From NCBI GenBank assembly GCA_028015205.1, contig CM051516.1, forward strand, positions 60,082,230-60,146,229: a stretch of 64,000 bases of DNA, written 5' to 3'. The DNA comes from Mytilisepta virgata. Taxonomy: Eukaryota; Mollusca; Bivalvia; Mytilida; Mytilidae. Under the pieces are notes generated by a model that worked only from the letters and a program-made list of their open reading frames with translations, was not told the origin of the DNA and ran no database searches. Numbering within the stretch: position 1 is the stretch's first letter; each line of letters begins with the position of its first letter. The position numbers and the translations under genes are program-made. Positions 1-39,000 of this stretch are shown in pieces.

Positions 1-60
1 TCTGTAGTTCAGATTGCATTGGGCCAGAATTTTATTTTGAAAATTCCAAGTGTCATCCAC
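1..60 (+). CDS. Array exon copy 0 (3' part only)
   Basis: The last 60 bp of a module exon run off the left edge and are followed by a good donor (gtaagt). It encodes the end of the module through Cys-His-Pro. Downstream intron sequence matches that after copies 2 and 4 (C-like subtype). Confidence 0.9.
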
Positions 61-3000
61 GTAAGTAACGGAATAAGATGTGGGCTTCTCTTTCAATCTA
101 GAACACCATATCTAAATATATTTCATGTCAATCTGTTAATTATCTGTCCGAGTCTTTTAAATCTGATTTTGGCATGATTGAGCCGATCTAAACTATTAAA
201 TGATATCGTCAAACTATCTAAGGTAAAGCTGCAAAATACTGAGCAAGTTCAATAACTGTTTCATTATTATAAATAATGACCTTAAATACCACTAACCTAA
301 TTACCAATAATACTCTGGGTAAATAAGGTGGAATCCGGCTATGCATAATGGCGATACACCTTGGAATCAATTTCATAAAAAAAACTGAAAATTCCTCCAC
401 TATCGAAATTATAATACTTTTATTTGTTGGAATGTTATAGAAATCATCATAGTAATTATTATGAAATATTCTTTCTGATTTTTACACGCCTTGGACTTTT
501 TCTTACAGGGGGATATTATGGAGAACCATGCTCATCTTCTTTTGGACACACATCCTGCTATGACAACCTAGCATGTGTAAATGACCTCTGTAGTTCAGAT
601 TGCATTGGGCCAGAATTTTATTTTGAAAACTCCAAGTGTCATCCGCGTAAGTAACGGAATAAGATGTGGATTTTTGCCTTTGTTTTTGGAACAGAAATTA
701 CCGAAAATATTGGATGTCAATCTGTTAATTCCCCGTTAGAGTCTGTGATATCTGATTGTTGGCCTTATAGAGCCGATTTCAATTCCAAAGTACAGAGAAA
801 TCAGTCTGTGGAGAACGGCAATAATACCTAACAAGAGGCCAATGGCCACGTGGCTCTCCGGTATTTTCATTTTAATCTTACCATTTCCACACACATGCTT
901 TTGAAGAAAGCAATTAATTTTTGTTATGAAGGTACTATATCTAGTTTTTACGTGATATTCTCTATGCAAGTTGCAAAACACTGCACAACACCGTTAAACA
1001 AAGAGATCTCAAGTATCTATTTTTACCTAAAAATTGAGCATGCTCAATAATATATACACTCCGCCTTCACAGATAAATCTTATTTACCCCTGAAGCTCTC
1101 ATGTGTATATATTTACCCAAATATCATTAGATATCTTCCTAAAACTTTAATCCGTATGAGTGTCATTCAAATCTTTGATTGCTTTCTATATGCTGCAGAA
1201 ACCAATTTTCAGCTTACATAATCATTCACGACTGTTGTGTATGTATAATTTACAAGATTAATAGGTGATCCATTTGTTTCTCTTATCGACATTCAGCCGG
1301 TGCAACTTTAATTATATGTCAAGGACTTTAACTGTTTTGTTACAATGGTGTATAATGGGAATATAGGTCATTACAAAATTTCGCATTCCACACCTGTAAA
1401 ACTAGATTTGAAAAAAGCATGCACAACTTCAGCCCAAATACTGAATGCATCCAAATGCACAATTTGCAGTAAGTTACCGTTTTGGAGATCTCGAGCTCAC
1501 AAAATCACGAAAATTCTGCTACCCACAGCATAAGGCTCTCGGACCTATGGTCCAGAGAGCCAGAAAATCAATTGCAAGAATATGATAAGAGCACTGCATT
1601 AATGTCATTATAATACATTTATTTGTATGAATCATAGAAATCATGATGATATTAATTATCATGAAAAATATTTCCCTTTTTTGGGTTTTTTTTTATCGTT
1701 TGGCCTTTTCCTTACTGGGGGATATTACGGAGAACCATGTTCATCATCTTTTGGACACACATCCTGTTATGAAAACTTAACATGTGTAAATGACCTCTGT
1801 AGTTCAGATTGCATTGGGCCAGAATTTTATTTTGAAAATTCCAAGTGTCATCCACGTAAGTAACGGAATAAGATTTGGGTTTCTCTTTCAATCTAGAACA
1901 CCATATCTAAATATATTTCATGTCAATCTGTTAATTATCTGTCAGAGTCTTTTAAATCTGATTTTGGCATGATTGAGCCGATCTAAACTATTAAATGATA
2001 TCGTCAAACTATCTAAGGTAAAGCTGCAAAATACTGAGCAAGTTCAATAACTGTTTCATTATTATAAATAATGACCTTAAATACCACTAACCTAATTACC
2101 AATAATACTCTGGGTAAATAAGGAGGAATCCGGCTATGCATAATGGCGATACACCTTGGAATCAATTTCATAAAAAAAACTGAAAATTCCTCCACTATCG
2201 AAATTATAATACTTTTATTTGTTGGAATGTTATAGGAATCATCATAGTAGTTATTATGAAATATTCTTTCTGATTTTTACACGCCTTGGACTTTTTCTTA
2301 CAGGGGGATATTATGGAGAACCATGCTCATCTTCTTTTGGACACACATCCTGCTATGACAACCTAGCATGTGTAGATGACCTCTGTAGTTCAGATTGCAT
2401 TGGGCCAGAATTTTATTTTGAAAACTCCAAGTGTCATCCGCGTAAGTAACGGAATAAGATGTGGATTTTTGCCTTTGTTTTTGGAACAGAAATTACCGAA
2501 AATATTGGATGTCAATCTGTTAATTCCCCGTTAGAGTCTGTGATATCTGATTGTTGGCCTTATAGAGTCGATTTCAATTCCGAAGTACAGAGAAATCAGT
2601 CTGTGCACAACGGCAATAATACCTAAAAATCAATTGGATAAGAGCACTTCATTAATGTCATTATAATACATTTATTTGTATGAATCATAGAAATCATGAT
2701 GATATTAATTATCATGAAAAATATTTCCCTTTTTTGGGTTTTTTGTTTTATCGTTTGGCCTTTTTTCTTACAGGGGGATATTACGGAGAACCATGTTCAT
2801 CATCTTTTGGACACACATCCTGCTATGACAACTTAACATGTGTAAATGACCTCTGTAGTTCAGATTGCATTGGGCCAGAATTTTATTTTGAAAATTCCAA
2901 GTGTCATCCACGTAAGTAACGGAATAAGATTTGGGTTTTTCTTTCGATCTAGAACACCATATCTAAATATATTTCATGTCAATCTGTTAATTATCTGTCA

Positions 3001-6000: not shown

Positions 6001-9000
6001 GAAGTTTTGAAATCTTAAGAGCTAGTGCCGGAAGCATATAGACAGAAATTTAGGTCTTATAAAAAGTTTGAATCACAAACCTATTTTGAATTTGCTAGGG
6101 AGATCTATTTGATAAATGGCTTACATCAAAGAAAATAGATAACAATTTTGATAAAATAAGACAATTAATGTTATTAGAACAGTTCAAGCAGTGTGTTAAT
6201 TTAAACTTAAAAACATATTTAGATGACAAAACTGTTGAGACATTGCAAGGTGCAGCTGTTGTTTCCGATAATTATACCCTTTCACATGAAAAAAATTTAA
6301 AAGGTCAAAATTTTAATACTTCAAGCGGAAATTACAAAAATCCAAGTACTGTGCTTATTGTAAGAAAAATGATCACCTGATGGCTGATTGTTTTAAACTC
6401 CAGATGAAGAATGAAAGAGATAATAAGCCCAAGTCCAGTGCTTGTACGACACCCCTTGTTACCAATAAGTTGGAATGTCCTGCGAGTCAGGCTTCTAAGT
6501 CCAGTTTTTGTGATTACATGGAGGATTATAAACCCTTTTTGTCTGATGGGTTTGTTTCTATTGTTGATAATACTACTCCTCAGCCTATTAAGATTTTACG
6601 GGACACTGGAGCTTCTCAGTCTTTGTTGTTAGAAGATGTGTTGCCTTTGTCCGAGGAGACGTCCGTTGGTGCCTCAAGACACTTACTATTGTCAAAGCTT
6701 TTTTCAATTTTTTCACATTAGTAGGACTTCTTAAGTAAAATTTCATGTCAGGTTTATTTCAGCAGGTCGTTTACCAGTTAGGGATTGCTCAGTATAGATC
6801 AAGTGCTTATCATCCAGAATCTCAAGGTGCCTTAGAACGTTTTCATTAAACACTGAACAACATGATTAGAACTTTTGTCTTCAATTTGACAGGGACTGGG
6901 ATGATGGTGTTCACTTTCTACTTTTTGCGACCCGAGAGGCTGTTCAAGAATCCCTTGGTTTTAGCCCCTTTGAGGTGGTGTTTGGTCATACTGTAAGGGG
7001 ATCTTTGAAATTGGTTAAGGAAAAATGGCTTACTGAACACACTGACCTGAATCTTCTAGACTGTGTATCTAGATTTAAAGAAAAATTGTATATTGCTTGT
7101 CAAATTGCTCAGAAAAACTTAAAAACTGTACAGAATAAAATGAAAATATGGTATGATAAAGACGCCAGGCACAGAGTTTTTGAGCCTGGTGATACGGTTC
7201 TTGTATTTTTGCCAGTCCCTGGGCATCCTTTACAGGCTAAAATTGTGTTCCTTATACAATAGAGAGTAAAATCTATGATTTGAATTAAAAACTCCAGGTC
7301 GGCGTAAACAAAATAGATAGTGTCACATTAATATGTTAAAACCATATTTTGGGCGTACTAATGAAGGTGAGAGTAATCCAGTTTCCATCTTAGCCATGGT
7401 TAAATTGGAGAACGATTATGACAAACCAGATATAATTGAACCATCTTTTGATTCCAAGACTATGGAACAAACTATTAGATTGAAAAATTCAGTAATTTTG
7501 TCAAATTTAGACTCAAAACTTGCACATCTGACTTTCGATCGCAGAGAAAAATTGAAAACTTTGTATTTTCTTTTAAAAATCTTTTTCCAGATGTGTCAAA
7601 CAAAACCACTGCTGTTCGTCATGATGTTGAAGTAGGCGATGCTTCTCCAATTAAGCAACATCCTTACCGGCTGAATCCACTTAAACTTGATTTTATGAGA
7701 CAAGAAATTAGATATATGCTTTATCTAGATCTTATTAAAACACTGTATACCTACTATATATTTTTGTATATATTGTTCATGCAAAGTTCTTGTTACATTC
7801 CAACTTCTTTTAAGGGGGGAGATGTTATGATATTGTAATTATTATATTTATTTATCTTGGTCTAATTTTTTTGTGTGGCCTTATAACATGTATAATATGC
7901 TTACATAATACTTATAGTTGTTTACCAAATAATTTTATAACTGTGCAGTTTAGAAATACTGGAACAATCATAGATACTGATGGAATGATTAGAACTTTCT
8001 ATTTGGCTTCCATAATAATTCTAGAATGATCATAATATACGATGTGTAATTCAAACTTCTACCGTATTCTAGAAATTTCCGTTCTGCAGTTTCTACGAGT
8101 TTCCCTTCTACAGTCTTCTAGAGATTTCCGTGACAACTATATATATATATATGTATATATATATATAAATATATATATGGACACTAAAGTTAGACTTTCA
8201 GATCAGACATTAACATTCTTGTTTTCTCAGATCTTGGATTGACACACTTATTCACGGTAACTGTTTAACATCATACTAGATTGTGATTTATTGAACATAA
8301 TATTCTGTTTGGATTCCCGTAACAGTGACGAGACGAATTCTGGATAAGGAAAGACTAAAGGATCAGACATATATTTAAACAGTTAAGTTGACATTTCAAT
8401 TTGTATAATATTTCTTGTAAACTTGTGTATAATAAATTTTGTTAAATTTTATTATTGATTTGTGTCTTTTTTTGGCTACAATTCAAATGTGATTTCTGGC
8501 TGTAACAATGTTCAAAAGTTCACTCCACTGCGAACATGAAAAAAGTAAAGAGAAATCAATCTGTGCACAACGGCAATAATCCCTAAAAATCAATTGCAGG
8601 AAAATGATAAGAGCACTGCACTAATGTCATTATAATCATTTATTTGTATGAATCATATAGAAATCATGATGATATTAATTATCATGAAAAATATTTCTGT
8701 TTTTTTTTTTTTTTTTTTTTGATCGTTTGGCCTTATCCTTACAGGGGGATATTATGGAGAACCATGCTCATCATCATTTGGACACACATCCTGCTATGAC
8801 AACTTAACATGTGTAAATGACCTCTGTAGTTCAGATTGCATTGGGCCAGAATTTTATTTTGAAAATTCCAAGTGTCATCGACGTAAGTAACAAGGAATAA
8901 GATTTGCGTTTTTTCTTTATTTTGGAACAGAATTTCTAAATGTGTTTCATGTCAATCTGTTAATTATCTGTCAGAATCTTTTAAATATGATTTTGGCCTT

Positions 9001-12000
9001 ATTGGGTCCATTTAAATTCCTAAAATATATCGTACAACTATCTATGGTCAAGCTACTTATAGGAAAATACTGAGCCAGTTTAATAACTGTTTTATTATGC
9101 TTAAGAATCACGTTTATGTCATCAATCTAATTCCCAGTAATACTATCTGTAAATTCATTAATTCAGCGATGGGGGCAAACACTCAGTGAAGGCATTTAAT
9201 ATTTAATGAAACGAAGATGGATAAAAGATATACAGATTTGAAAGTAAGAGGTCTTTTCACATCAAATGTTAAAATAAATGTCGAAGATAAAACAAACATT
9301 CACAATGATGTAAAATCAAAGTAAATGTCATTTCACAAAATTAAGGTGGAATTTCTCTATGCACAATGGCGATACACTTTGGAATCAATTTCATGGAAAA
9401 ACTGAAAATAACTCCACCAATAAAATTATAATACTTTTATTTGTTGGAAGGTTATAGATATGATGAAAACAATTATTATGAAATATTCTTTCCGATATTA
9501 GCATCCCTTTGGCCTTTCTCTTACAGGGGGATATTATGGAGAACCATGTTCATCTTCTTTTGGACACGCATCTTGCTATGACAACTTGGCATGTGTAAAT
9601 GACCTCTGTAGTTCAGATTGCATTGGGCCAGAATTTTATTTTGAACACTCCAAGTGTCATCCGCGTAAGGAACCGAATAAGATGTGGGGTCTCTATTTAA
9701 TTTTAGAACAGAATTTCTAAATATTTTCATGTCAATCTGTTAAGTATCTGTCAGAGTCTTTTAAATCTGATTTTGGCCTTATTAAGCCGATTTATATTTC
9801 TGAAAAAAATGTCGTCAAACTATCCAAGGCAAAGCTGGATAAAGGAAAAAACTGAGCAAGTTTAATAATTCTTTTATTATGCTAAAGAATCACGTGTGTG
9901 CCAACAACCTAATTACCAGTAATACTCTGGGTAAACCCAGTTATTCAACGTTATGGGCAAACACTCACTGAAGGCATTAAATATTTAATGACACGAAGAT
10001 TGAAAAAAAAATAGACAGATGTGAACGTAAGGGGTCTTTTCCGACCAAATGTAAACATAAATGTAGAAGATGAAACAAAACATTCATCGTGTTATAAAGT
10101 CAAGGTAAATGTCATTTCACAAAAATAAGGTGGAATCCGGCTATGCATATTGTCGATACACCTTGGAATCGATTTCATGAAAAACCTGAAAATAACTCCA
10201 CCAATGAAATCAAATTACCTGTATTAGTTGGAAGGTTATAGAAATCATGATAGTAATTACCATGAAATAACTCTTGACCTTTTTCTTACAGGGGGATACT
10301 ATGGAGAACCATGCTCATCTTCTTTTGGACACGCATCCTGCTATGACAACTTAACATGCGTAAATGACCTCTGTAGTTCAGATTGCATTGGGCCAGAATT
10401 TTATTTTGAAAACTCCAAGTGTCATCCGCGTAAGTGACTGAATAAGTTGTGGATTGTTTACTATCTTTTTGGAATAGAACTTGCCGAAAATATTGGATGT
10501 CAATCTGTTAATAACCTGTAAGAGTCTGTGAAAGCTGCTTAAATTTGTTTGCCTTGTAGAGCCGGTTTAAGTTCCGAAGTGTTATTTTCAAACAATCTAA
10601 GGTCAAGCTGCGTATAGGACGATACTGACTACATTTAATAAAGGTTTTATTATCAATGGTAAAGAAACCCCTCTCTGCCACCAGCCTGATTACAAGTAAT
10701 GCTCTTGGTAAATTAATTAATTGACCGATGGGACGGACACTCGGTGAACGCATTAGATATGCAATCAAACAGCGACGGGTGAAAAAGGCACAGATTAGAA
10801 CGTAAAACTTCCTTTCAGATCTATCTAATCAGTTCTAAGGCGAAAATAAACCTTGGAATTACAGCATGTACAGGTAACATTTATAATGTTTAAAAGTTCA
10901 CTCCACTGCGAACATGAAATAAGTATAGAGAAATCAATCTGTGCACAACGGCAATAACCCCTAATAATCAATTGCAGGAAAATGATGAGAGCACTGCACT
11001 AATGTCATTATAATACAATTATTTGTATGAATCATATAGAAATCATGATGATATTAATTATCATGGAAAATATTTGTTTTTTTCCTTACAGGGGGATATT
11101 ATGGAGAACCATGCTCATCTTCTTTTGGACACGCATCCTGCTATGACAACCTAACATGTGTAAATGACATCTGTAGTTCAGATTGCATTGGGCCAGAATT
11201 TTATTTTGAAAATTCCAAGTGTCATCCACGTAAGTAACGTAAATAAGATGTTTGTTTTTTCTGTATTTTTTTAACAGAATTTCTAAATGTGTTTCATGTC
11301 AATCTGTTAATTATTTGTCAGAATCTTTTAAATATGATTTTGGCCTTATTGAGTCCATTTAAATTCCTAAAATATATCGTACAACTATCCATGGTCAAGC
11401 TGCTTATAGGAAAATACTGAGCCAGTTTAATAACTGTTTTATTATGCTTAAGAATCACGTTTATTACATCAATCTAATTACCAGTAATACTATCTGCAAA
11501 TTCATTAATTCATCGAACGGGGCAAACACTCAGTGAAGGCATTTAATATTTAATGAAACGAAGATGAATAAAGATATACAGATTTGAAAGTAGGAGGTCT
11601 TTTCACATCAAATGTAAAAATAAATGTCGAAGATAAAACAAACAGTCATAATGATGTAAAATCAAAGTAAATGTCATTTCACAAAAATAACGTGGAATTC
11701 TGCTATGCACAATGTCGATACACTTTGGAATCAATTTCATGAAAAAAACTGAAAATAACTCCACCAATGAAATTATAATACTTTTATTTGTTGGAAGGTT
11801 ATCGAAATCATGATAGTAATTATCATGAAATATTTTTTCTGATTTTTGCACCCCCTCGACTTTTTCTTACAGGGGGATATTATGGAGAACCATGCTCATC
11901 TTCTTTTGGACACGCATCCTGCTATGACAACCTAACATGTGTAAATGACCTCTGTAGTTCAGATTGCATTGGCCCAGAATTTTATTTTGAAAACTCCAAG

Positions 12001-15000
12001 TGTAATCCGCGTAAGTAACATAATAAGATGTTGGTTTTCTATTTATTTTTAGAACAGAATTTCTAAATATTTTTCATGTCAGTCTGTTAATTATCTGTCA
12101 GAGTCTTCTAAATCTGAGTTTGGCCTTATTAAGCCGATTTATATTCCTGAACAATATCGTCAAACTATCCAAAGCAAAGCTGCATATAGGAAAATACTGA
12201 GCAAGTTTAATAACTGTTTTATTATGCCAAAGATTAAGAATCACGTTGATGCCATCAAGCTAATTACCAGTAATACTGTAGGTAAATTCATTTATTCAGT
12301 GATGGGGCAAACACTCACTGAAGGCATTAAATATTTAATGAAACGAAAATGGAAAAAAGATATACAGATTTGAAAGTAAGAGGTCTTTTCACATCAAATG
12401 TTAAAATAAATGTCGAAGATAAAACAAACATTCATAATGATGTAAAATCAAGGTAAATGTCATTTCACAAAATTAAGGTGGAATTCCTCTATGCACAATG
12501 GCGATAGACTTTGGAATCAATGTCATGAAAAAACTGAAAATAACTCCACCAATGAAATTATAATACTTTTATTAGTTGGAAGGTTATAGATATTATGAAA
12601 ATAATTATTATGAAATATTCTTTCTGATATTTGCATCCCTTTGGCCTTTCTCTTACAGGGGGATATTATGGAGAACCATGTTCATCTTCTTTTGGACACG
12701 CATCCTGCTATGACAACTTAGCATGTGTAAATGACCTCTGTAGTTCAGATTGCATTGGGCCTGAATTTTATTTTGAAAACTCCAAGTGTCATCCGCGTAA
12801 GTAACCGAATAAGATGTGGGTTTTCTATTTCTTTTTAGAACAGAATTTCTAAATATTTTTCATGTCAATCTGTTAATTATCTGTCAGAGTTTTTTAAATC
12901 TGATTTTGGCCTTATTAAGCCGATTTATATTCCTGACAAAATGTCGTCAAACTATCGAAGGCAAAGCTGGATATAGGAAAAAACTGAGCAAGTTTAATAA
13001 TTGTTTTATTACGCTAAAGAATCATGTGTATGTCATCAACCTAATTACCAGTAATACTCTGGGGAAACTCAGTTATTGAACGGTGTGGGCAAACACTCAC
13101 TGAAGGCATTAAATATTTAATGACACGAAGATAGAAAAAAAAATAGACAGATGTGAACGTAAGGGGTCTTTTCAGACCAAATGTAAACATAAATGTAGAA
13201 GATGAAACAAAACATTCATCGTGTTATAAAGTCAACGTAAATGTCATTTCACAAAAATAAGGTGGAATCTCGCTATGCATATTGTCGATACACTTTGGAA
13301 TAGATTTCATGAAAAACCTGAAACTAACTCCACCAATGAAATCCAATTACTTGTATTAGTTGGAAAATTATAGAAAACATGATAGTAATGATCATGAAAT
13401 ATCTCTTGACCTTTTTCTTACAGGTGGATACTATGGTGAACCATGCTCATCTTCTTTTGGACACGGATCCTGCTATGACAACTTAACATGTGTAAATGAC
13501 CTATGTAGTTCAGATTGCATTGGGGCAGAATTTTATTTTGAAAACTCCAAGTGTCATCTGCGTAAGTAATAGAATAAGATGTGGGTTTTTTCTTTATTTT
13601 TGTAAGAGAATTTCTAAGTTGTGGATTGTTTCCTATCTTTTGGAATAGAACTTACCAAAAATATTGGATGTCAATCTGTTAATTACCTGTTAGAGTCTGT
13701 GAAATCTGTTTGGTTTTTGCCTTGTAGAGCCGATTTAAGTTCTGAAGTGTTATTGTCAAACAATCTAAGGTTAAGCTGCGTATAGGACGATACTGACTAC
13801 ATTTAATAAGGGTTTTATTATGGTAAAGAAACCCCTCCATGCCACTAGCCTGATTACAAATAATCCTCTGGGTAAGTTAATTAATTGACCGATGGGGCGG
13901 ACTCTCAGTGAACGCATTAGATATTCAATCAAGCAGCGACGGATGAAAAAGGCACAGATTAGAACGTAAAACTTCCTTTCAGGTCTGTTTAGTCAGTTCT
14001 AAGGTAAAAATAAATCTTTGAAATACAGCAAACATTCATAATTTTAAAAAGATCTAAGGTAAAAATAAATCTTTGAAATACAGCAAACATTCATAATGTT
14101 AAAAAGTTCTCAGGTAAAAATAAATCTTTGAAATACAGCAAACATTCATAATGTTAAAAATTCACTCCACTTCGAATATGAAATAAGTACAGAGAAATCA
14201 ATCTGTGCACAACGGCAATAATCCCTAAACTTCAATTGCAGAACAATGATGAGAGCACTGCACTAATGTCATTATAATACATTTATATCTATGAATCATA
14301 TAGAAATCATGATAATATTAATTATGATGAAAAATACTTGTTTTTTTGTTTTTTGATATCGTTTGGTCTTTTCCTTACAGGGGGATATTATGGAGAACCA
14401 TGCTCATCATCATTTGGACACACATCTTGCTATGACAACTTATCATGTGTAAATGACCTCTGTAGTTCAGATTGCATTGGGCCAGAATTTTATTTTGAAC
14501 ATTCCAAGTGTCATCCACGTAAGTAATGGAATAAGATGTGGGTTTTTTCTTTATTTTTGTAAGAGAATTTCTAAATGTGTTTCATGTCAATCTGTTAATT
14601 ATCTGTCAGAATCTTTTAAATATGATTTTGGCCTTATTGAGTCCATTTAAATTCCTAAAATATATCGTACAACTATCCATGGTCAAGCTGCTTATAGGAA
14701 AATACTGAGCCAGTTTAATAACTGTTTTATTATGCTTAAGAATCACGTTTATTACATCAATCTAATTACCAATAATAGTATCTGTAAATTCATTAATTCA
14801 ACGATGGGAGCAAACACTCAGTGAAGGCATTTAATATTTAATGAAACAAAGATGGATAAAAGATATACAGATTTAAAAGGAAGAGGTCTTTTCACATCAA
14901 ATGTAAAAATAAATGTCGAAGATAAAACAAACATTCATAAGGTCATAAAATTAAGGTAAATGTCATTTCACAAAAATAAGGTGGAATTCTGCTATGCACA

Positions 15001-18000
15001 ATGTCGATACACTTTGGAATCAATTTCATGAAAAAAACTGAAAATAACTCCACCAATGAAATGATAATACTTTTATTTGTTGGAAGGTTATAGATATGAT
15101 GAGAATAATTATTATGAAATATTCTTTCTGATATTTGCACCCCTTTGGCCTCTCTCTTACAGGGGGATATTATGGAGAACCATGTTCATCTTCTTTTGGA
15201 CACGCATCCTGCTATGACAACTTAGCATGTGTAAATGACCTCTGTAGTTCAGATTGCATTGGGCCAGAATTTTATTTTGAAAACTCCAAGTGTCATCCGC
15301 GTAAGTAACAGAATAAGATGTGGGTTTTCTATATATTTTTAGAACAGAATTTCTAAATATTTTTCATGTCAATCTGTTAAGGGCAATGTGGTCGAGTGGT
15401 TTAGGCGCTGGCCTTTAAACCACGAGGTCGACACCGCTGTAGGTTCGAACCTCACATGTGTTAAGGTTTCCAGGCACCTACCTTACCTCGGGGGTATCAC
15501 CGATTTTCCGGCCTAGAATATCGGGCTTTCCTCCCCCACAAACATGGCGACCATGCGAGAACACCATATCTACCAAACGGTCGGAAATCTCGCCGTCGGT
15601 AAAAAAAGCTCTACAGAGCTTATGTTGATTGTTGACTTGTACACACCGACGTTAAATAAAACTTACCTTTAAGTATCTGTCAGAGTCTTTTAAATCTTAT
15701 TTTGGCCTTATTAAGCCGATTTATATTTCTGAAAAAATGTCGTCATACTATCCAAGGCAAAGCTGGATATAGGAAAAAACTCAGCAAGTTTAAAAATTGT
15801 TTTATTATGCTTAAGAATCACGTGTGTGCCAACAACTTAATTACCAGTAATACTCTGGGTAAACTCAGTTATTCAACGATGTGGGCAAACACTCACTGAA
15901 GGCATTAAGTATTTAATGACACAAAGATAGAAAAAAAATACACAGATGTGATCGTAAGGGGTCTTTTCAGACCAAATGTAAACATAAATGTAGAAGATGA
16001 AACAACACATTCAGCGTGTTATAATGTCATTTCACAAAAATAAGGTGGAATCCAGCTATGCATATTGTCGATACACCTTGGAATCCATTTCATGAAAAAC
16101 CTGAAAATAACCCTACCAATGAAATCAAATTACCTGTATTAGTTGGAAGATTATAGAAACCATGATAGTAATTATCATGAAATATCTCTTGACCTTTTTC
16201 TTACAGGTGGATACTATGGTGAACCATGCTCATCTTCTTTTGGACACGCATCCTGCTATGACAACTTAACATGTGTAAATGACCTATGTAGTTCAGATTG
16301 CATTGGACCACAATTTTATTTTGAAAACTCCAAGTGTCATCCGCGTAAGTAACCGAATAAGTTGTGGATTTTTTCCTTTCTTTTTCGAACAGAACTTGCC
16401 GAAAATATTGGATGTCAATCTCTTAATTACATGTTAGAGTCTGTGAAATCTGCTTTTTCTGCCTTGTAGATCCGATTTAAGTTCCGAAGTGTTATTGTCA
16501 AATAATCTACGTTCAAGCTGCGTATAGGGCGATACTGACTACATTTAATAAAGGTTTTATTATGGTAAAGAAACCTCTCTCTGCCACCAGCCTGATTACA
16601 AGTAATGCTCTTGATAAATTAATTAATTGATTGACCGATGGGACGGACACTCGGTGAACGCATTAGATAAGCAATCAAACAGCGACGGATGACAAAGGCA
16701 CAGATTAGAACGTAAAACTTCTATTCAGATCTATTCTAAGGTGAAAATAAATCTTGGAAATACAGGAAACATTTATAATGTTCAAAAGTTCACTCCACTG
16801 CGAACATGAAATAAGTACAGAGAAATCAATCTCTGCACAACGGCAATAATCCCTAAACTTCAATTGCAGTAAAATGATGAGAGCACTGCACTAATGTCAT
16901 TATAATACATTTATTTGTATGAATCATATAGAAATCATGATGATATTAATTATCATGGAAAATATTTGTTTTTTTCCTTACAGGGGGATATTATGGAGAA
17001 CCATGCTCATCATCATTTGGACACACATCTTGCTATGACAACTTAACATGTGTAAATGACCTCTGTAGTTCAGATTGCATTGGGCCAGAATTTTATTTTG
17101 AAAATTCCAAGTGTCATCCACGTAAGTAACGGAATTAGATGTTTGTTTTTTTCTGTATTTTTTTAACAGAATTTCTAAATGTGTTTCATGCCAATCTGTT
17201 AATTATCTGTCAGAATCTTTTAAATATGATTTTGGCCTTATTGAGTCCATTTAAATTCCTAAAATATATTGTACAACTATCCATGGTCAAGCTGCTTATA
17301 GGAAAATACTGAGCCAGTTTAATAACTGTTTTATTATGCTTAAGAATCACGTTTATTACATCAATCTCATTACCAGTAATAGTATCTGTAAATTCATTAA
17401 TTCAGAGATGGGGGCAAACACTCAGTGAAGGCATTTAATATTTAATGAAACAAAGATGGATAAAAGATATACAGATTTAAAAGGAAGAGGTCTTTTCACA
17501 TCAAATGTAAAAATAAATGTCGAAGATAAAACAAACATTCATAAGGTCATAAAATTAAGGTAAATGTCATTTCACAAAAATAAGGTGGAATTCTGCTATG
17601 CACAATGTCGATACACTTTGGAATCAATTTCATGAAAAAAACTGAAAATAACTCCACCAATAAAATTATAATACTTTTATTTGTTGGAAGGTTATCGAAA
17701 TCATGATAGTAATAAATATGAAATATTCTTTTTGATTTTTGCACCCCTTTGACCTTTCTCTTACAGGGGGATATTATGGAGAATCATGCTCATCTTCTTT
17801 TGGACACGCATCCTGCTATGACAACCTAACATGTGTAAATGACCTCTGTAGTTCAGATTGCATTGGCCCAGAATTTTATTTTGAAAACTCCAAGTGTCAT
17901 CCGCGTAAGTAACAGAATAAGATGTTGGTTTTCTATTTATTTTTAGAACAGAATTTCTAAATATTTTTCATGTCAGTCTGTTAATTATCTGTCAGAGTCT

Positions 18001-21000: not shown

Positions 21001-24000
21001 GTTTACTATCTTTTTGGAATAGAACTTGCCGAAAATATTGGATGTCAATCTGTTAATAACCTGTAAGAGTCTGTGAAAGCTGCTTAAATTTGTTTGCCTT
21101 GTAGAGCCGGTTTAAGTTCCGAAGTGTTATTTTCAAACAATCTAATGTCAAGCTGCGTATAGGGCGATACTGACTACATTTAATAAAGGTTTTATTATGG
21201 TAAAGAAACCCCTCTCTGCCACCAGCCTGATTACAAGTAATGCTCTTGGTAAATTAATTAATTGACGGACACTCGGTGAACGCATTAGAAATGCAATCAA
21301 ACAGCGACGGATGAAAAAGGCACAGATTAGAACGTAAAACTTCCTTTCAGATCTATTTAGTCAGTTCTAAGGTGAAAATAAATCTTGGAAATACAGGAAA
21401 CATTTATAATGTTCAAAAGTTCACTCCACTGCGAACATGAAAGAAGTACAGAGAAATCAATCTGTGCACAACGGCAATAATCCCTAAAAATCAATTGCAG
21501 TAAAATGATAAGAGCACTGCACTATTGTCATTATAATACATTTATTTGTATGAATAATATAGAAATCATGATGATATTAATTATCATTGAAAATATTTGT
21601 TTTTTTCCTTACAGGGGGATATTATGGAGAACCATGCTCATCATCATTTGGACACACATCTTGCTATGACAACTTAACATGTGTAAATGACCTCTGTAGT
21701 TCAGATTGCATTGGGCCAGAATTTTATTTTGAAAATTCCAAGTGTCATCCACGTAAGTAACGGAATAAGATGTTTGTTTTTTCTGTATTTTTTTAACAGA
21801 ATTTCTAAATGTGTTTCATGTCAATCTGTTAATTATCTGTCAGAATCTTTTAAATATGATTTTGGACTTATTGAGTCCATTTAAATTCCTCAAATATATT
21901 GTACAGCTATCCATGGTCAAGCTGCTTATAGGAAAATACTGAGCCAGTTTAATAACTGTTTTATTTTGCTTAACAATAACGTTTATTACATCAATCTAAT
22001 TACCAGTAATACTATCTGTAAATTCATTAATTCAACGATGGGGGCAAACACTCAGTGAAGGCATTTAATATTTAATGAAACGAAGATGGATAAAAGATAT
22101 ACAGATTTAAAAGGAAGAGGTCTTTTCACATCAAATGTAAAAATAAATGTCGAAGATAAAACAAACATTCATAAGGTCATAAAATTAAGGTAAATGTCAT
22201 TTCACAAAAATAACGTGGAATTCTGCTATGCACAATGTCGATACACTTTGGAATCAATTTCATGAAAAAAACTGAAAATAACTCCACCAATAAAATGATA
22301 ATAGTTTTATTTGTTGGAAGGTTATAGAAATCATGATAGTAATAAATATGAAATATTCTTTCTGATTTTTCCACCCCTTTGGCCTTTCTCTTACAGGGGG
22401 ATATTATGGAGAACCATGCTCATCTTCTTTTGGACACGCATCCTGCTATGACAACCTAACATGTGTAAATGACCTCTGTAGTTCAGATTGCATTGGGCCA
22501 GAATTTTATTTTGAAAACTCCAAGTGTCATCCACGTAAGTAAAAGAATAAAATGTCGGTTTTCTATTTATTTTTAGAACAGAATCTCTAAATATTTTTTT
22601 ATGTTTCCCTGTCAATTATCTGTCAGTCTTTAAAATCTGATTTTGGCCTGATTAAGCCGATTTATATTCCTGAACAATATCGTCAAACTATCCAAGGCAA
22701 AGCTGCATATAGGAAAATACTGAGCAAGTTTAATAACTGTTTTATTATGCCAAAGATTAAGAATCACGTTTATGCTATCAGCCTAATTACCAGTAATACT
22801 CTGGGTAGACTCATTTATTCAACGATGGGGCAAAAACTCACTAAAGGCATTAAATATTTAATGGAACGAAGATTGGAAATAAAATACAAAGATTTGAACA
22901 TAAGGTGTCTTTTCCGACCAAATGTAAACATAAATGTAGAAGATGAAACAAAACATTCATCGTGTTATAAAGTCAAGGTAAATGTCATTTCACAAAAATA
23001 AGGTGGAATCCGGCTATGCATATTGTCGATACACCTTGGAATCGATTTCATGAGAAATCTGAAAATAAATCCACCAATGAAATCAAATTACCTGTATTAG
23101 TTGGAAGGTTATAGAAATCATGATAGTAATTATTATGAAATATCTCTACACCTTTTTCTTACAGGAGGATACTATGGAGAACCATGCTCATCTTCTTTTG
23201 GACACAAATCCTGCTATGACAACTTAACATGTATAAATGACCTCTGTAGTTCAGATTGCATTGGGTCAGAATTTTATTTTGAAAACTCCAAGTGTCATCC
23301 GCGTAAGTAACCGAATAAGTTGTGGATTTTTTCCTTTCTTTTTGGAATAGAACTTGCCGTAAATATTGGATGTCAATCTCTTAATTACATGTTAGAGTCT
23401 GTGAAATCTGCTTTTTCTGCCTTGTAGAGCCGATTTACGTTCCGAAGTGTTATTGTCAAACAATCTAAGGTCAAGCTGCGTATAGGACGATACTGACTAC
23501 ATTTAATAAGGGTTTTATTATGGTAAAGAAACCCCTCTCTGCCACCAGCCTCATTACAAGTAATGCTCTTGGTAAATTAATTAATTGACCGATGGGACGG
23601 ACACTCGGCGAACGCATTAGATATGCAATCAAACAGCGAAGGATGAAAAAGGCACAGATTAGAACGTAAAACTTCCTTTTAGATCTATTTAGTCAGTTCT
23701 AAGGTGAAAATAAATCTTGGAAATACAGGAAACATTTATAATGCTCAAAAGTTCACTCCACTGCGAACATGAAATAAGTACAGAGAAATCAATCCGTGCA
23801 CAACGGCAATAATCCCTAAAAATCAATTGCAGTAAAATGATGAGAGCACTGCACTAATTTCATTATGATACATTTATTTGTATGAATCATATAGAAATCA
23901 TGATGATATTAATTATCATGGAAAATATTTGTTTTTTTCCTTACAGGGGGATATTATGGAGAACCATGCTCATCATCATTTGGACACACATCTTGCTATG

Positions 24001-27000
24001 ACAACTTAACATGTGTAAATGACCTCTGTAGTTCAGATTGCATTGGGCCAGAATTTTATTTTGAAAATTCCAAGTGTCATCCACGTAAGTAAAGGAATAA
24101 GATGTTTGTTTTTTTTGTTTTTTCTGTATTATTTTAACAGAATTTCTAAATTTGTTTCATGTCAATCTGTTAATTATCTGTCAGAATCTTTTAAATATGA
24201 TTTTGGCCTTATTGAGTCCATTTAAATTCCTAAAATATATCGTACAACTATCCAGGGTCAAGCTGCTTATAGGAAAATACTGAGCCAGTTTAATAACTGT
24301 TTTATTATGCTTAAGAATCACGTTTATAACATCAATCTAATTACCAGTAATACTATCTGTAAATTCATTAATTCAACGGTGGGGGCAAACACTCAGTGAA
24401 GGCATTTAATATTGAATGAAATGAAGATGGATAAAAGATATACAGATTTGAAAGTAAGGAGTCTTTTCACATCAAATGTAAAAATAAATGTCGAAGATAA
24501 AACAAACATTCATAAGGTCATAAAATTAAGGTAAATGTCATTTCACAAAAATAAGGTGGAATTCTGCTATGCACAATGTCGATACACTTTGGAATCAATT
24601 TCATGAAAAAAACTGAAAATAACTCCACCAATGAAATTATAATACTTTTATTTGTTGGAAGGTTATAGAAATCATGATAGTAATTATTATGAAATATTCT
24701 TTCTGATTTTTGCACCCCTTTGGCCTTTTCTTTTACAGGGGGATATTATGGAGAACCATGCTCATCTTCTTTTGGACACGCATCCTGCTATGACAACCTA
24801 ACATGTGTAAATGACCTCTGTAGTTCAGATTGCATTGGGCCAGAATTTTATTTTGAAAACTCCAAGTGTCATCCACGTAAGTAAAAGAATAAAATGTTGG
24901 TTTTCTATTTATTTTTAGAACAGAATTTCTAAATATTTTTCATGTCAGTCTGTTAATTATCTGTCAGAGTCTTTTAAATCTGATTTTGGCCTTATTAAGC
25001 CGATTTATATTCCTGAACAATATCGTCAAACTATCCAAGGCAAAGCTGCATATAGGAAAATACTGAGCAAGTTTAATAACTGTTTTATTATGCCAAAGAA
25101 TAAGAATCACGTTGATGCCATCAGCCTAATTACCAGTAATACTGTAGGTAAACTCATTTATTCAATGATGGGGCAAACACTCACTGAAGGCATTAAATAT
25201 TTAATGAAACGAAGATGGAAAAAAAATACACAGATTTGAACGTAAGGTGTCTTTTCAGACCAAATGTAAACATAAATGTAGAAGATGAAACAAAACATTC
25301 AGCGTGTTATAAAGTCAAGGTAAATGTCATTTCACAAAAATAAGGTGGAATCCCGCTATGCATATTGTCGATACACCTTGGAATCGATTTCATGAAAAAC
25401 CTGAAAATAACTCTATCAATGAAATCAAATTACCTGTATTAGTTGGAAGATTATAGAAATCATGATACTAATGATCATGAAATATCTCTTGACCTTTTTC
25501 TTACAGGGGGATACTATGGAGAACCATGCTCATCTTCTTTTGGACACACATCCTGCTATGACAACTTAACATGTGTGAATGACCTCTGTAGTTCAGATTG
25601 CATTGGGCCAGAATTTTATTTTGAAAACTCCAAGTGTCATCCGCGTAAGTAACCGAATAAGTTGTGGATTTTTTCCTTTCTTTTTGGAATAGAAGTTGTT
25701 GAAAATATTGGATGTCAATCTGTTAATTACCTGTCAGAGTCTGTGAAATCTTCTTTTGTTTTGCCTTGTAGAGCCGATTTAGTTTTTTTTTGTCAAACAA
25801 TCTTAGGTTAAGCTGCGAATAGGACGATACTGACTACATTTAATAAAGGTTTTATTATGGTGAAGAAACCCCTCCATGCCACCAGTCTGATTACAATTAA
25901 TTCTCTGGGTAAATTAATTAATTGACCGATAGGGCGGACACTCAGTGAACATTTAGATATTCAATCAAGCAGATCAGAACGTAAAACTTCTTTTCAGATC
26001 TATTTAGTCAGTTCTAAGGTAAAAATAAATGTTGGAAATACAGGAATCATTCATAATGTTCAAAAGTTCAATCCACTGCGATCATGAAAAAAGTACAGAG
26101 AAATCAATCTGCACAACGGCAATAATCCCTAAAAATCAATTGCAGGAAAATGATAAGAGCACTGCACTAATGTCATTATAATTCATTCATTTGTATGACT
26201 GATTGATTGATTGAATATTGTTTTACGCCGTGTGGGAGACATTTAAGCCATATCACGGCTAGTTTATTTGTATGAATCATATAGAAATCATAATGATATT
26301 AATTATCATGAAAAATATTTCTGCTTTTTAATTTTTTTGTTATCGTTTGGCCTTTTCTTTACAGGGGGATATTATGGAGAACTATGCTCATCATCATTTG
26401 GACACACATCCTGCTATGACAACTTATCATGTGTAAATGACCTTTGTAGTTCCGATTGCATTGGGCCAGAATTTTATTTTGAAAATTCCAAGTGTCATCC
26501 GCGTAAGTAACGGAATAAGATGTTGGTCTTTTCTTTATTTTTGGAACAGAATTTCTAAATGCGTTTTATGTCAATCTGTTAATTATCTGTCAGAATCTTT
26601 TAAATATGATTTTGGCCTTATTGAGTCCATTTAAATTCCTTAAAAAATATCGTACAACTATCCATGGACAGGCTGCTTCTAGGAAAATACTGAGCAAGTT
26701 TAATATGTGTTTTATTATGCTTAACAATCACGTTTATGTCATCAACCTAATTACCAGTAATACTACCTTTAAATTTATTTATTCAACGATGGGGGCAAAC
26801 ACTCAGTGAAGGAATTTAATATTCAATGAAATGAAGATGGATAAAAGATATACAGATTTGAAAGTAGGGAGTCTTTTCACATCAAATGTAAAATAAATGT
26901 CGAAGATAAAACAAACATTCATAACGTTATAAAATCAAGGTAAATGTCATGTCACAAAATTAAGGAAGGTTGTAGAAATCACGATAGTATTTATTATGAA

Positions 27001-30000
27001 AATAACAGTCCAAAGATACTTATATTAGATATAGTAAATTTAAACTCTGCTGTATACGGCCCATTTCAGCAGCATTAAAACCAACCGAAACATTTGGAAG
27101 ACCAACAACCAAACTTATTTTAAACAAGTTCTCATAACCAAAAATACCGAAATAGTAGGCCAAATTTCAGCTAAGGAGATCTACCATGTGAAATACAAGG
27201 AATGAACCCCTAATATTTCTATTATTTTTGAATTTTCCTAAATACTGGTAATTTCTGTAACAAATCAATGAATATTCATGTCAGACAAGTCTGACGACTG
27301 GGTTGGCGAATACCCTCTGGACCTAGAGCACACCATGCAGAGGCATCGTGCCAGGAGTTTAAAAATAACAATCCAAAGATACTAATATTAGAGATAGTAA
27401 ATTTATAGTATGCTGTATACGACACATTTTAAGGAGTTACCTCTTATCAGCAGCATTAAAACCGAAACATTTGGAAGACCAAAAACCAAACTTATTTTAA
27501 ACAAGAGGTACTCATAACCAAAAATACCGAAAATATTCCCTTTGTCCTTTCTCTTACAGGGGGATATTATGGAAAACCATGCTCATCTTCTTTTGGACAC
27601 GCATCCTGCTATGACAACTTAACATGTGTAAATGACCTCTGTAGTTCAGATTGCATTGGGCCAGAATTTTATTTTGAAAACTCCAAGTGTCATCCGCGTA
27701 AGTAAAAGAATAAGATGTTGGTTTTATATTCATTTTTAAAACAGAATTTTTAAATATTTTTCATGTCAGTCTGTTAATTATCTAACAGAGTCATTTAAAT
27801 CTGATTTTGGCCTTATTAAGCCGATTTATATTCCTGAAAAATATCGTCAAACAATCCAAGGCAAAGCTGCATATAGGAAATTACTGAACAACTTTAATAA
27901 TTGTTTAATTATGCCAAAGAATCACGTTGATGCCATCAACCTAATTACCAGTAATACTCTGGGTAAACTCAACGATGTGGTCAAACACTCACTGAAGGCA
28001 TTAAATATTTCATGAAACGAAGATAAAAAAAAATACACAAATTTGAACGTAAGGGGTCTTTTCAGACCAAATGTAAACATAAATATAGAAGATGAAACAA
28101 AACATTCAGCATGTTATAAAGTCAAGGTAAATGTCATTTCACAAAAATAAGGTGGAATCCGGCTATGCATATTGTCGATACACCTTGGAATCCATTTTAT
28201 GAAAAACCTGAAAATAGCTCCTCCAATGAAATCAAATTACCTGTATAAGTTGGTAGGTTATAGAAATCATGATAGTAATTATCATGAAATAACACTTGAC
28301 CTTTTTCTTACAGGTGGATACTATGGCGAACCATGTTCATCTTCTTTTGGACACGGATCCTGCTATGACAACTTAACATGTGTAAATGACCTCTGTAGTT
28401 CAGATTGCATTGGGCCAGAATTTTATTTTGAAAACTCCAAGTGTCATCCGCGTAAGTAACCGAATACGTTGTGAATTTTTTCCTTAATAGAACTTGCCAA
28501 AAGTATTGGATGTCATTCTGTTAATTACCTGTTAGAGTCTGTGAAATATGCTTTTTTTTGCCTTGAAGAGCCGATTTAAGTTCCGAAGTGTTTTTGTCAA
28601 ACAATCTAAGGTCAAGCTGCGTATAGGACGATACTGACTACATTTAGTAAGGGTTTTATTATATGATAAAGAAACCCTCTATGCCATCAGCCTGATTACA
28701 AGTAATGATATGGGTCAATTTATTAATTGACCGATGGGGCGGACACCCAGTGAACGCATTAGATATTCAATCAAGCAGGGATGGATGAAAAAGGCACAGA
28801 TTAGAACGTAAAATTTCTTTCAGATCTATTTAGTCAGTTCTGAGGTAAAAATAAATGTTGGAAATACAGGAACATTCATAATGTTCAAAAGTTCACTCCA
28901 CTGTGTTCATGAAAAAAGTACAGTGAAATCAATCTGTGCACAACGACAACAATCCGTACAAATCAATTTCAGGAAAATGTTAAGAGCACTGCACTATTGT
29001 CATTATAATACATTTATTTGTATGAATCATTCAGATTGTATTGGGCCAGAATTTTATTTTGAAAATTCCAAGTGTGATCTGCGTAAGTAACAACAGAATA
29101 AGATGTTTTTCCTTTCTTATCTGAACATAATTTTTAAATATTTTTCCTTTGAGTCTTAATTATATGTCAGACTCTTTTAAATCTGATTTTGGCCTTATTG
29201 ACCCGATTTAAATTCCTAACCAATGGCATCAAACTATTCTAGGTGAAGCTGTGTATAGGAAAATGCTGAGCAAGTTTTGTATAATAAATGTTTTATTATG
29301 CTAAAAAATCACGTTAATGCCATCAACCTAATTACCAGTAAGACCATTGGTAATTCATTAATTCAACAAAGGGGGCAAACACTCTAAATTACCTCTGTAG
29401 TTTAGATTGCAATGAATATGTGGATTTGTTTCCTTTTTTTAGGAACAGAATGTCAATCTCTTTATTATCTGTTAGATGAACAAGACAATGATAACTAGGG
29501 AAGGTTAACAATCACATACCAATCAAGTAAAGGAACCTAACTGATAGAAATGCGGACAAAAATTAACATAAAACAGTACAAAACACAAACATGAACACAA
29601 CAGATAGTCTGACTTGGTACAGACACTGGACAGTGGGGTGTTTAAAACGAGTTTACGGGAACGCAAACCTCCCCTTTATTTCAGACCTGTTACCACTGCG
29701 ATTTTAGCGTAGTTTTTACTAATTTTGGCCATCAAATTACGTTTTACGCCTCAATATATCATTTCTACGTTAACAAAGATGTTACAGTAAAACAAAAGAC
29801 GGCAGTATATAATTTTGTTTTCAAAGAAAGATTTTTGAACGCAAAATTGAGTCTTTGAAACTCATTGTCTTTATGCTCTTAACATTGCTTATATATTACG
29901 CAATTCTTACAAACTCCTTCGTGACCGTGACCGTGACCGTATATCAGAAGACCTTTAAGATGTTTTGGACGCCTTATATTGTATTCTGTACAGTTGGGCT

Positions 30001-36000: not shown

Positions 36001-39000
36001 CAAGTTGTTGTTATTTATTGAATTAATGAATGTAAACCTACAAAATTTCTTAAATAATATATTTGCTTAGTTTGATATTCTAAATCGAATCAAGCAAACA
36101 TATTTCCGAATAGCCATTAAAAGTACTTTTACATATCAATTATATACAAAAATGCTCTTTATTACAAGCACAAAAATCTTACTTAGTCTAATACTAATAT
36201 ATTTATTTTTCCGGAAATTTGAATTCAAAAGCTTTGTCACTGTAATATGTAAGAAAGGTTAGGTTGCCGTAATTTTATATATCTTTTTTGAGGTGGGGGT
36301 CGGGGGGGGGGGGGGGGGAGGAAGGGGGTTGCTTAATGAAGTTACAAGAGTGTTTGCATCCAATCATAAAGCTTAGTGCATTGTCTTTTGCGGGTAGAGC
36401 GAGTTACGAGCATCATTATCGTAAAAGAAGTAATTTGTCTAAATGGGTACAAAGTTAACAACATTAGCTGGAATATTGAGTATAACAAACTGTTAAACTT
36501 CTATAATTTTTTTCAGGAGGGTCCAATAGTGAACCTTGTTCATCGTCGTTTGGTGACGACAGTTGTTTATACTCCTTAAGATGTACATCTGATATTTGCC
36601 ATTGTTATTTACTAGCAATAGAGTACTTCGATGAGAACAACAAAACATGTTATCTGAGTAAGAAAAATAACTTTAGAATTCAATGCCACAAAGTAGAAAC
36701 AACAGTTCCTTTTAAAATCAATTTTTATTAATCTGTTTAATAATTTAGAATTTACTTGTGTTTAATGTGATAATGATTTATCTGTATTAATTATGATTTA
36801 TTTCATCAGCCGTACTTTGTATGCTAAAAATATCTAAATTAATTATTGTCTCTCGAATTGTTTCCCCTTGCAATTTGACGGTGTTACTCACTAGGTTTTT
36901 GTTTGCTATTGTTTTATAATTCAGTTTGTTGTGCTGCATGTTTTTAATTTCATTTAAATATTCTTTTGGTTTTATCTGTGTCATATTTCTTTGATATACT
37001 AGTATTTGCACTAATTGGATTTGGATTTTGATTCTTTGGAGTGTACCCATTGTCAATCATTTTTGTAACTTTCTTGCTATACTATCTTGCTGGAAACCTC
37101 TATTTTAATGTTTTCATAATCAGTGCAATTACGGATTACCGCCGGTACCTGAAGCAGTGTTTCAATGAAATATGTCCTATCCCTCGTGCATAAAAGCTTA
37201 ATTTTCCCCTTCTTATTTTTTATAGTTAATAGTTGTAATGTTATACAGAGACATGCAATTCATAAAATGTTTTTCCAACATGAAAAGATACACACTCATC
37301 GGGTAAAAGGTTGAAATATTTTGGACTTTGATTACTTTGTCTACAGAATTACATAAAATGTCATATTTTCATATTTGTAGCCATAATGAAAACTGGTCCA
37401 TAAGCTGGATCAAAAGGTGTAAAACTAGTTATTATGCTCTTTCAGGACCTTGTCATATACTGCCATCCTGTTAAAAAACATAGTCAAAAATATCCCTCCA
37501 ATGAAGGTTTTAATGGGATCTCGTTATGCAGTTCAATAGTTTTAAAATCGTTAGTATTATTCACGAGAGGCCAATATAAATATAAAATCCCAGGTGACGC
37601 TGAATGCCTCAAAAGCACACACATCAAGAATAATTTTTTTTAAGGATGATCGCTGGTTTAATAGGAAATACATAGGATTTGAAATAGGTGTTTTAGTTTG
37701 AGAGAACATATGAATACACTTGGTTGAACGTGTTAATCACCAAAAGAATCGTGTAACGTGCGAAACGTGCGCGTGTAACGTGTGGATCGTGTGTGTGTAT
37801 CGTGTGAATCGTGTGCGTGCAACGTGCGAATCGTGTGCGTGTGGTTTGCGTGTGGTAATAAACGTGCGATTTGAATCGTGTAACGTGTACGAGATTTCAT
37901 TGGTCGAGACAGATTTTAAAACGTGTGAATTCAAATCAGTGCATATTTCAAACTTGAATTAAAATATGATTGGAACGAACTTTCACCTGTGTCAAGTATT
38001 TGAAAATGTTGATATTAATATTCAAGCACAGATTCTAATCTTTCGATTTTAAATTTTTTTCGACAAAATCATTTATTAATTTATATCTGCAATGTAAATT
38101 TTTACATAAGTAATTATTTGGTTATTATATTCCCAAGACGGTTTATTCACGGACGACTACTAGGCTAAAACAACATCTAATTAGACAAGGGATTAAGAGG
38201 TTCTACATGTATGTATTTACCTGTAAGTTTAGCCGAGATGAGCTTTCTGATTGAAAAAAGGAATACACAAGAAATCTGATATAGCTAAATAAAATTGATA
38301 AATTAAGTAAACATGAATTTACTGAAAATAAAATAGATCACTAAAAACAATTTATTGACAAAATAAATATTATATTCAAATGTATACATTTAGAGTTACG
38401 TTTTCAGATAATCTTCAATTATATTATAAATATATTTACATGTATGTACAAATGTTTTACATAGAGAATATTAAATATTTTTATTCACTTATGGTTAAAT
38501 AATGTTTTAAATGAATAAATAATAATAAAAAATATCATATTTATATCAACTATATATTAACAGTTAATATTTTGTATCATACTTTATATTGTTAATGAAT
38601 AAATTAAATATTATTACAATTTAACTTATAATTAAACCATTAAACATTGTATATCTGAGGTAGATGTACAGCTAAATAAGAATTTGTCCCGTCAGAGGAA
38701 CTCTTAATCCCTTGTGTAATTAAATGTTGTTTTAGCCCAGTCGTCGTTCGTAGACTATTCCCATGACATGATGTCTTTCGTGTGAAAGGAGCCATAATTG
38801 TGGCGCAATGTTTATTTTGCTGACAACTTTATTATTATCATATCAATTTTGGTTAGTATGCCCTAGCTAGTTATAATTAGATTAAAATAACATGAAAGGG
38901 TTTATAGATTTTAAATAAATTTAAAATATAATTTAACAGTTCTGTTATAAAGTTTAATAAATTTCCCATAAAAAAAATAATAGTATACGCAAATAAATAT

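Follow-up and report, generated by a model that had tools for sequence, protein, structure and literature searches.

Tandem six-cysteine module exons in a predicted polycystin-1-like receptor gene of the bivalve Mytilisepta virgata

A stretch of 64,000 nucleotides of the bivalve Mytilisepta virgata (the window; assembly GCA_028015205.1, contig CM051516.1, hereafter C9, positions 60,082,230 to 60,146,229 of the forward strand) carries a tandem array of near-identical exons, each encoding a module with six cysteines. On the genomic sequence, the array is assigned to a polycystin-1-like gene, as the original prediction had proposed for its ectodomain, because the exon phases match at both ends and predicted proteins of Mytilus are colinear across the junction between the array and the GAIN-like region. 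We consider it probable that this single gene encodes a signal peptide, a kringle, 61 near-identical modules and a divergent one, a GAIN-like region with a GPS motif, a PLAT domain, and a polycystin channel, and that its array grew by block duplication, is kept by purifying selection, and forms a long tether or multivalent arm. The analysis covered the window and its flanks, 90 kb on the upstream side and 30 kb on the downstream side (184 kb, no N). Coordinates are relative to the window, and negative values lie upstream of its first base.

Array Copies and Reading Frame

Copies were located over the 184 kb by blastn with one module exon as the query, and copies counted as good if they were flanked by an acceptor AG and a donor GT, had a length that is a multiple of three, and contained no stop. 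The search returned 70 places, 61 of which passed this filter, all with six cysteines and phase 1-1. The window had been predicted to hold 31 complete 138-bp exons of this kind, and this number was recovered: 30 are stop-free with both splice sites and six cysteines, whereas the copy at 1718-1855 has lost its acceptor. The edge, truncated, and divergent copies described along with them are also present (Table 1). The long chain of modules that had been proposed exceeds the window, since 30 good copies start within it and 31 upstream, and the array extends another 30 kb in that direction. All complete copies lie on the plus strand and read as two bases, 45 codons, and one base. Beyond the required GT and AG, the donor is GTAAGT in 60 of the 61 good copies and the acceptor is CAG in all 61. 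The nine failing places include three with an in-frame stop (-23880, -23655, and -23448), five that are degenerate or truncated (-34549, -28349, -24668, 28945, and 29316), and one without an acceptor.

When the filter was not applied, all 60 full-length places from -20 kb to 28.5 kb were stop-free with six cysteines, and 59 kept both splice sites. Each of the other two plus-strand frames is open in none of the 59 filter-passing copies in this range, and one minus-strand frame is open in 56 of them. Only 27 of 177 intron windows of module length are open, which, set against the 60 open places, indicates that the openness is not due to chance. The 61 good copies comprise 33 distinct module sequences, one of which occurs 13 times, with a mean protein identity of 94%. 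A search of the whole genome (1.03 Gb, 109 contigs) at E ≤ 1e-3 gave 67 matches, all inside C9:60052300-60111307, although divergent modules could escape such a search; with this proviso, the presence of many near-identical arrays across the genome was rejected. The 4.5-kb gap in the array between 4259 and 8745 contains pieces of retroelement-like open reading frames (gag zinc-knuckle and integrase, by eye, window 6317-7838), and endonuclease- or reverse-transcriptase-like open reading frames, also recognized by eye, occupy -22901 to -19499, with the stop-bearing copies on one side and the main block on the other.

Selection on the Modules and Growth of the Array

In the 59 good copies that lie downstream of -20 kb, the exons are on average 95% identical in pairwise comparison, versus 75% for the 150 bp before the exon and 78% for the 150 bp after it. 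Pooled over pairs of modules, synonymous divergence (dS) amounts to 0.149 within the upstream block, 0.190 within the downstream block, and 0.187 for pairs across the two, nonsynonymous divergence (dN) is 0.020-0.026, and pairwise dN/dS is 0.12-0.14. Mismatch in the 80-100 bp of intron flanking the exons, with at most 200 random pairs per comparison, is 0.15-0.22, compared with 0.39 in unrelated DNA. Silent sites therefore diverge about as much as introns, and the likeness of the exons does not come from copying confined to exons. Because the module pairs are not independent, changes were also counted by parsimony on a tree, which placed 50 synonymous and 49 nonsynonymous changes and none to a stop. 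From the spectrum of mutations in 156 intron columns, 0.717 nonsynonymous versus 0.224 synonymous is expected, and the ratio corrected for this spectrum is 0.31 (binomial p 9e-9), which is milder than the pooled dN/dS. The array is coding and is under purifying selection on the protein; a non-coding satellite was rejected on the open frames and on the dN/dS and parsimony evidence of selection.

None of the 49 nonsynonymous changes falls in the six cysteine codons, whereas residue 14 takes 13 of them and residue 21 takes six. An NLT or NLS sequon ending at residue 21 occurs in 36 of the 61 modules, and residue 21 decides its presence. Over a large part of the upstream two-module block, this residue alternates between T and A, switching the NLT sequon.

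Introns shorter than 1.5 kb within the array form classes that are mostly ordered B-C-B-C upstream and A-A-D downstream, which points to tandem duplication of blocks of two and three modules. Intron identity within a class reaches 99.8% (class B), with means of 0.86 (class A) and 0.90 (class D), and the value of 99.8% suggests recent duplication events.

Gene Model around the Array

The gene model comprises 80 exons and 4,410 residues, with 62 modules (61 near-identical and one divergent) and one terminal stop. It occupies some 102 kb, beginning with a candidate signal-peptide exon (-42706) and ending with the stop at 59110. With its two halves joined, the kringle reaches 41.3 bits, above the Pfam cut-off of 34.3, and its link to the modules would follow from the exon phases. 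Downstream of the array, the original prediction held a frame of 14 exons; its strand and matching phases stood, but the model contains 15 exons after the divergent module (36517-36657), all matching in phase within one open frame that ends at 59110. The least certain of them, 52312-52420, fits the phase gap between 51698 and 52672, and a direct junction from 51698 to 52672 was rejected because the phases mismatch.

The name GAIN for the region 39917..46281 is given from its position; no match to a GAIN model was found in this region. The GPS (PF01825, E 1.4e-9; sequence CYCDHLTNFAGG, HLT) precedes the first membrane segment, as judged by eye, and the PLAT domain (PF01477, E 4.1e-20, residues 622-731 of the C-terminal model) follows it. 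The C-terminus matches Polycystin_dom (PF20519, 1.1e-38) and PKD_channel (PF08016, 5.1e-31), and its channel part matches the solved chains of PKD2L1, polycystin-2, and PKD1L3, and that of polycystin-1 weakly. The analogy to REJ proteins and sperm-egg recognition that had been suggested is weak: REJ (PF02010) had no match in the 1,548-residue C-terminal model at E ≤ 1, and the 149-residue N-terminal model matched the kringle alone, and no REJ, at E ≤ 0.01. The six-cysteine module fell below the cut-off of the EB module PF01683 (18.3 bits versus 24.3, E 0.0024). The introns of the gene contain a 166-bp tandem repeat twice (window 30420-32084 and 49484-50135), and a 24-bp minisatellite lies at window 54386-55271.

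Relatives, Paralogs, and Comparable Systems

Relatives were sought in a database of 5.8 billion proteins, with one further search started from the protein P0021. The closest were the predicted Mytilus proteins P0001, P0021, P0022, P0023, and P0024 (named PKD1L2, hypothetical, or uncharacterized), which have the kringle, six-cysteine modules, GAIN-like region, GPS, PLAT, and polycystin channel in the same order as M. virgata, except that the GPS was not called in P0021 and P0022 and the channel was not called in P0024. All five join modules to the same C-terminal half and are colinear across the junction; when the C-terminal model plus its last two modules is the query, the best alignment begins at query residue 1 for four of them and at residue 8 for P0001, with 39-43% identity over the aligned C-terminal part. 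The architecture is, then, already present in mussel protein predictions. No description of a kringle, six-cysteine array, and polycystin architecture was found in the titles or abstract openings of the open-licence papers searched.

The original prediction also had the module number vary among forms of the receptor. For M. virgata, covered by one genome, such length variation or splice choice stays a prediction; related Mytilus genes do differ, their predicted proteins ranging from 1-2 to 40 modules. In P0001 (M. edulis, named PKD1L2), the same C-terminal half is preceded by a kringle and two modules, one of them clear and the other looser and recognized by eye. P0021 (M. edulis, 4,520 residues) has 15 kringles and 40 modules, and P0024 also carries discoidin-type domains. 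Counted by pattern, modules number 25 in P0022, 12 in P0023, 16 in P0024, and 1 in P0001, compared with 62 here. P0021 and P0022 (named isoforms X5 and X7, M. edulis) are identical save for one block of 646 residues and 15 modules that is cut in step with the modules. No stronger evidence than this pair of database predictions is available that arrays of modules are spliced to this receptor and that exon skipping can alter the number of modules.

The Mytilus modules are more diverse than those of M. virgata, with within-gene means of 0.61-0.64 versus 0.94. Modules within one gene are 0.61 to 0.94 alike, in contrast to 0.36-0.38 between genes, with 0.65 for the pair P0023/P0024. In the module tree, the 31 distinct modules of M. 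virgata form one clade, with a support of only 0.48, and the modules of P0021 and of P0023/P0024 fall partly in pure clades (the largest with 14 of 38 and 18 of 23, respectively). Four of the five last modules, taken as the Mytilus ones from the listed sequences, clade together with a support of 0.998, and the last module of M. virgata is no closer to the Mytilus last modules (0.36) than to the Mytilus array modules (0.34). Because the arrays are gene-specific, this gene and two mussel gene types probably each built up the array at this site independently, through amplifications of their own.

The M. virgata genome gave 38 polycystin-channel matches and 60 PLAT matches. Two paralogs of the C-terminal half on C9 (31.3 and 32.2 Mb) align with the protein of this gene in seven stretches, six with 43-55% identity and one with 29%. 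No convincing module was found in the 50 and 40 kb examined there (best E 0.023), and the N-termini may lie outside. A dense one-strand cluster of PLAT matches is located at C8:16.3-17.7 Mb in the same genome.

Vertebrate PKD1L2, PKD1L3, and polycystin-1 share the GPS, PLAT, polycystin domain, and channel with the M. virgata gene, but the PKD1L2 and polycystin-1 matches carry lectin, PKD, or REJ ectodomains in their Pfam listings; a six-cysteine array was not called in those listings, and no dedicated scan of these proteins for one was made. Sea urchin REJ proteins are likewise members of the PKD1 family with a modular ectodomain, a GPS, and in part a PLAT domain. In Ptychodera flava, the PKD1-like proteins P0083-P0087 (3,712-4,854 residues) also come in many predicted isoforms with a long ectodomain built of repeats, but Pfam lists frizzled, LDL-receptor class A, and REJ domains for them, and a separate origin is likely. 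These isoforms are numbered up to X32, and this is a second repeat-built ectodomain in the family. Outside the family, kringle IV type 2 of LPA (apolipoprotein(a)) is an exon-borne coding repeat of a secreted protein whose frame is kept as copies change. Near-identical, frame-neutral coding exons in tandem within one gene are found here as well; unlike in LPA, the unit is one 138-bp exon with its intron, the gene encodes a predicted membrane receptor, and the array is known from one genome. Abalone VERL, whose repeats evolve in concert, differs in being an egg-coat protein with an unrelated domain and no channel receptor. Its 23 ZP-N domains are an example of a repeated domain in a mollusc extracellular protein (PMC8830517).

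Proposed Mechanism and Alternative Explanations

Polycystin-type receptors, with their huge ectodomains, are regarded as converting extracellular binding or force into channel signals. In the gene described here the ectodomain is a nearly pure chain of one bead, so that length and bead number can be varied cleanly. The array would have grown by tandem duplication of two- and three-module blocks through unequal crossing-over. As each module is one phase 1-1 exon, copies may be gained, lost, or skipped without a break of the frame, and purifying selection would keep the protein alike while introns and silent sites drift. The modules may form a long disulfide-bonded tether that holds the kringle far from the membrane, gives many equal binding sites, or both, and a pull or binding event could be relayed through the GAIN-like region and the GPS, where cleavage may occur, to the channel, in the manner assumed for other PKD1-like proteins. 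The tunable property would be the length of the array and not the variety of its modules; their uniformity under selection would favor a spacer or many equal binding sites over a repertoire. Work cited in PMC1934368 found that the PKD repeats of polycystin-1 unfold singly, one after another, when force is applied, whereas a chain of six-cysteine beads would be expected to resist unfolding. These considerations suggest that such a receptor may lengthen its outer arm bead by bead. With the kringle-to-GAIN site seemingly filled by separate amplifications here and in mussels, ectodomain length as a tunable trait becomes testable.

Several points weigh against this reading. The gene model derives from genomic sequence alone, the Mytilus proteins used for comparison are database predictions, and the array length comes from one assembly. 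Exons were partly picked by their splice sites, so the AG at 79 of 79 inner acceptors and the GT at 79 of 79 donors are partly a matter of choice, and the signal-peptide exon is a single candidate from a simple filter. As for the rod shape, the AlphaFold model of a single module was poor (mean predicted local distance difference test score 61.6), and solved structures searched with a profile of the aligned modules gave no match. The uniformity of the modules is incomplete, since residues 14 and 21 together hold 19 of the 49 nonsynonymous changes. Furthermore, the three stop-bearing copies retain AG and GT, with the kringle side upstream of them and the main block downstream; their stops imply that they are skipped, or that the 5' part (the kringle together with the modules that start at -29931 and -29313) is split from the rest.

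The stop-bearing copies also bear on the possibility that the gene is real but its transcripts hold only part of the array, with splicing or an inner promoter producing shorter forms and these copies serving as boundaries or poison exons. Their usable splice sites, the window copy with the lost acceptor, and the difference of 15 modules alone between P0021 and P0022 are consistent with it, and we give it a modest probability; however, isoform predictions over repeats may be artefacts, and the open frames and splice sites retained from -20 to 28.5 kb are hard to explain if they are mostly unused. A more speculative and rather unlikely reading is that the array acts as a hypervariable length code. 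Individuals would then vary in how many modules they have and in how glycosylated (NLT) and unglycosylated modules follow one another, splicing would add further lengths, and the receptor would report distance, avidity, or a self or partner match by the length of its arm and not by variety of sequence. Separate amplification in apparently three genes suggests selection for length itself.

It is unlikely that the array is a repertoire in the style of recognition loci, with choice or exchange of modules yielding many specificities. The concentration of changes at residues 14 and 21 and the partial, alternating presence of the sequon speak for it, but the modules are on average 94% identical in protein, are under overall purifying selection, and include one sequence in 13 of 61 copies among only 33 distinct ones; many specificities appear unlikely because of this mean identity. 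We also doubt, to the same degree, that the assembly distorts the copy number so that true alleles have clearly fewer or more than 61 modules. Intron copies that are up to 99.8% identical invite collapse or duplication, but the 184 kb are free of N, many copies are distinct from one another, and introns of the downstream classes A and D are less alike. That the array is a gene of its own, or a tandem repeat without coding function, lying by chance 5' of the polycystin gene is highly improbable. The 8 kb without a good module (28451 to 36517) and the reliance of the array-polycystin join on genomic sequence leave some room for it, but the frame is under selection, the array agrees in phase with the flanking exons on either side, and predicted Mytilus proteins run colinear with the gene.

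Features of the Region

Table 1. Coordinates of the features of the predicted gene, relative to the window.
Feature	Position	Strand	Remark
Candidate signal-peptide exon	-42706..-42631		Sole one passing a simple filter
Kringle half-exons (2)	-37311..-37248, -33388..-33222		Joined in phase, ending in phase 1 as a module exon requires
Good upstream module copies (31)	starts -29931 to -77	+	From blastn and filter
Edge copy of module	-77..60	+	Last of the 31 good copies starting upstream
Six-cysteine module exon, 138 bp, phase 1-1	509..646	+	First copy fully within the window
Six-cysteine module copy, open frame	1718..1855	+	Acceptor AG changed to TG; probably skipped
Module exons (4)	2304-2441, 2774-2911, 3360-3497, 4122-4259	+	Close the upstream block (mainly two-module) on its 3' side
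Module exons (25)	8745..28451	+	AG/GT, open, six cysteines, 138 bp each; mainly three-module higher-order repeat
Starts of the first 13 of these 25	8745, 9527, 10292, 11092, 11873, 12659, 13424, 14381, 15163, 16207, 16984, 17767, 18510	+	
Starts of the last 12 of these 25	19292, 20074, 20837, 21615, 22397, 23165, 23947, 24739, 25507, 26365, 27560, 28314	+	
Truncated module copy	28945..29082	+	3' part only, donor present, acceptor absent; probably unused
Truncated module piece	29385-29414	+	
Divergent last six-cysteine module exon	36517..36657	+	141 bp, phase 1-1, beside the GAIN-like region
Helical/GAIN-like region (7 exons)	39917-40020, 40301-40426, 41992-42089, 42471-42624, 43814-44077, 44915-45068, 45878-46281	+	Colinear with Mytilus proteins
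GPS motif exon (CYCDHLTNFAGG)	47423..47653	+	With hydrophobic stretch read as first membrane segment
PLAT/LH2 exons	47925-48211, 48530-49105	+	
Exons between PLAT and polycystin domain	51483-51698, 52312-52420, 52672-52968, 53917-54064	+	
Last coding exon	57912..59110	+	Polycystin domain, cation channel, and stop

Other open reading frames flank the predicted gene. Just past it, on the opposite strand (61005-62336, minus), an open reading frame of 443 residues matches IgGFc_binding (Pfam, 1.2e-31). Upstream lie an open reading frame of 366 residues that resembles rhodopsin-type receptors by eye (-71847 to -70750, plus) and one of 436 residues that resembles transglutaminases by eye (-65124 to -63817, minus).

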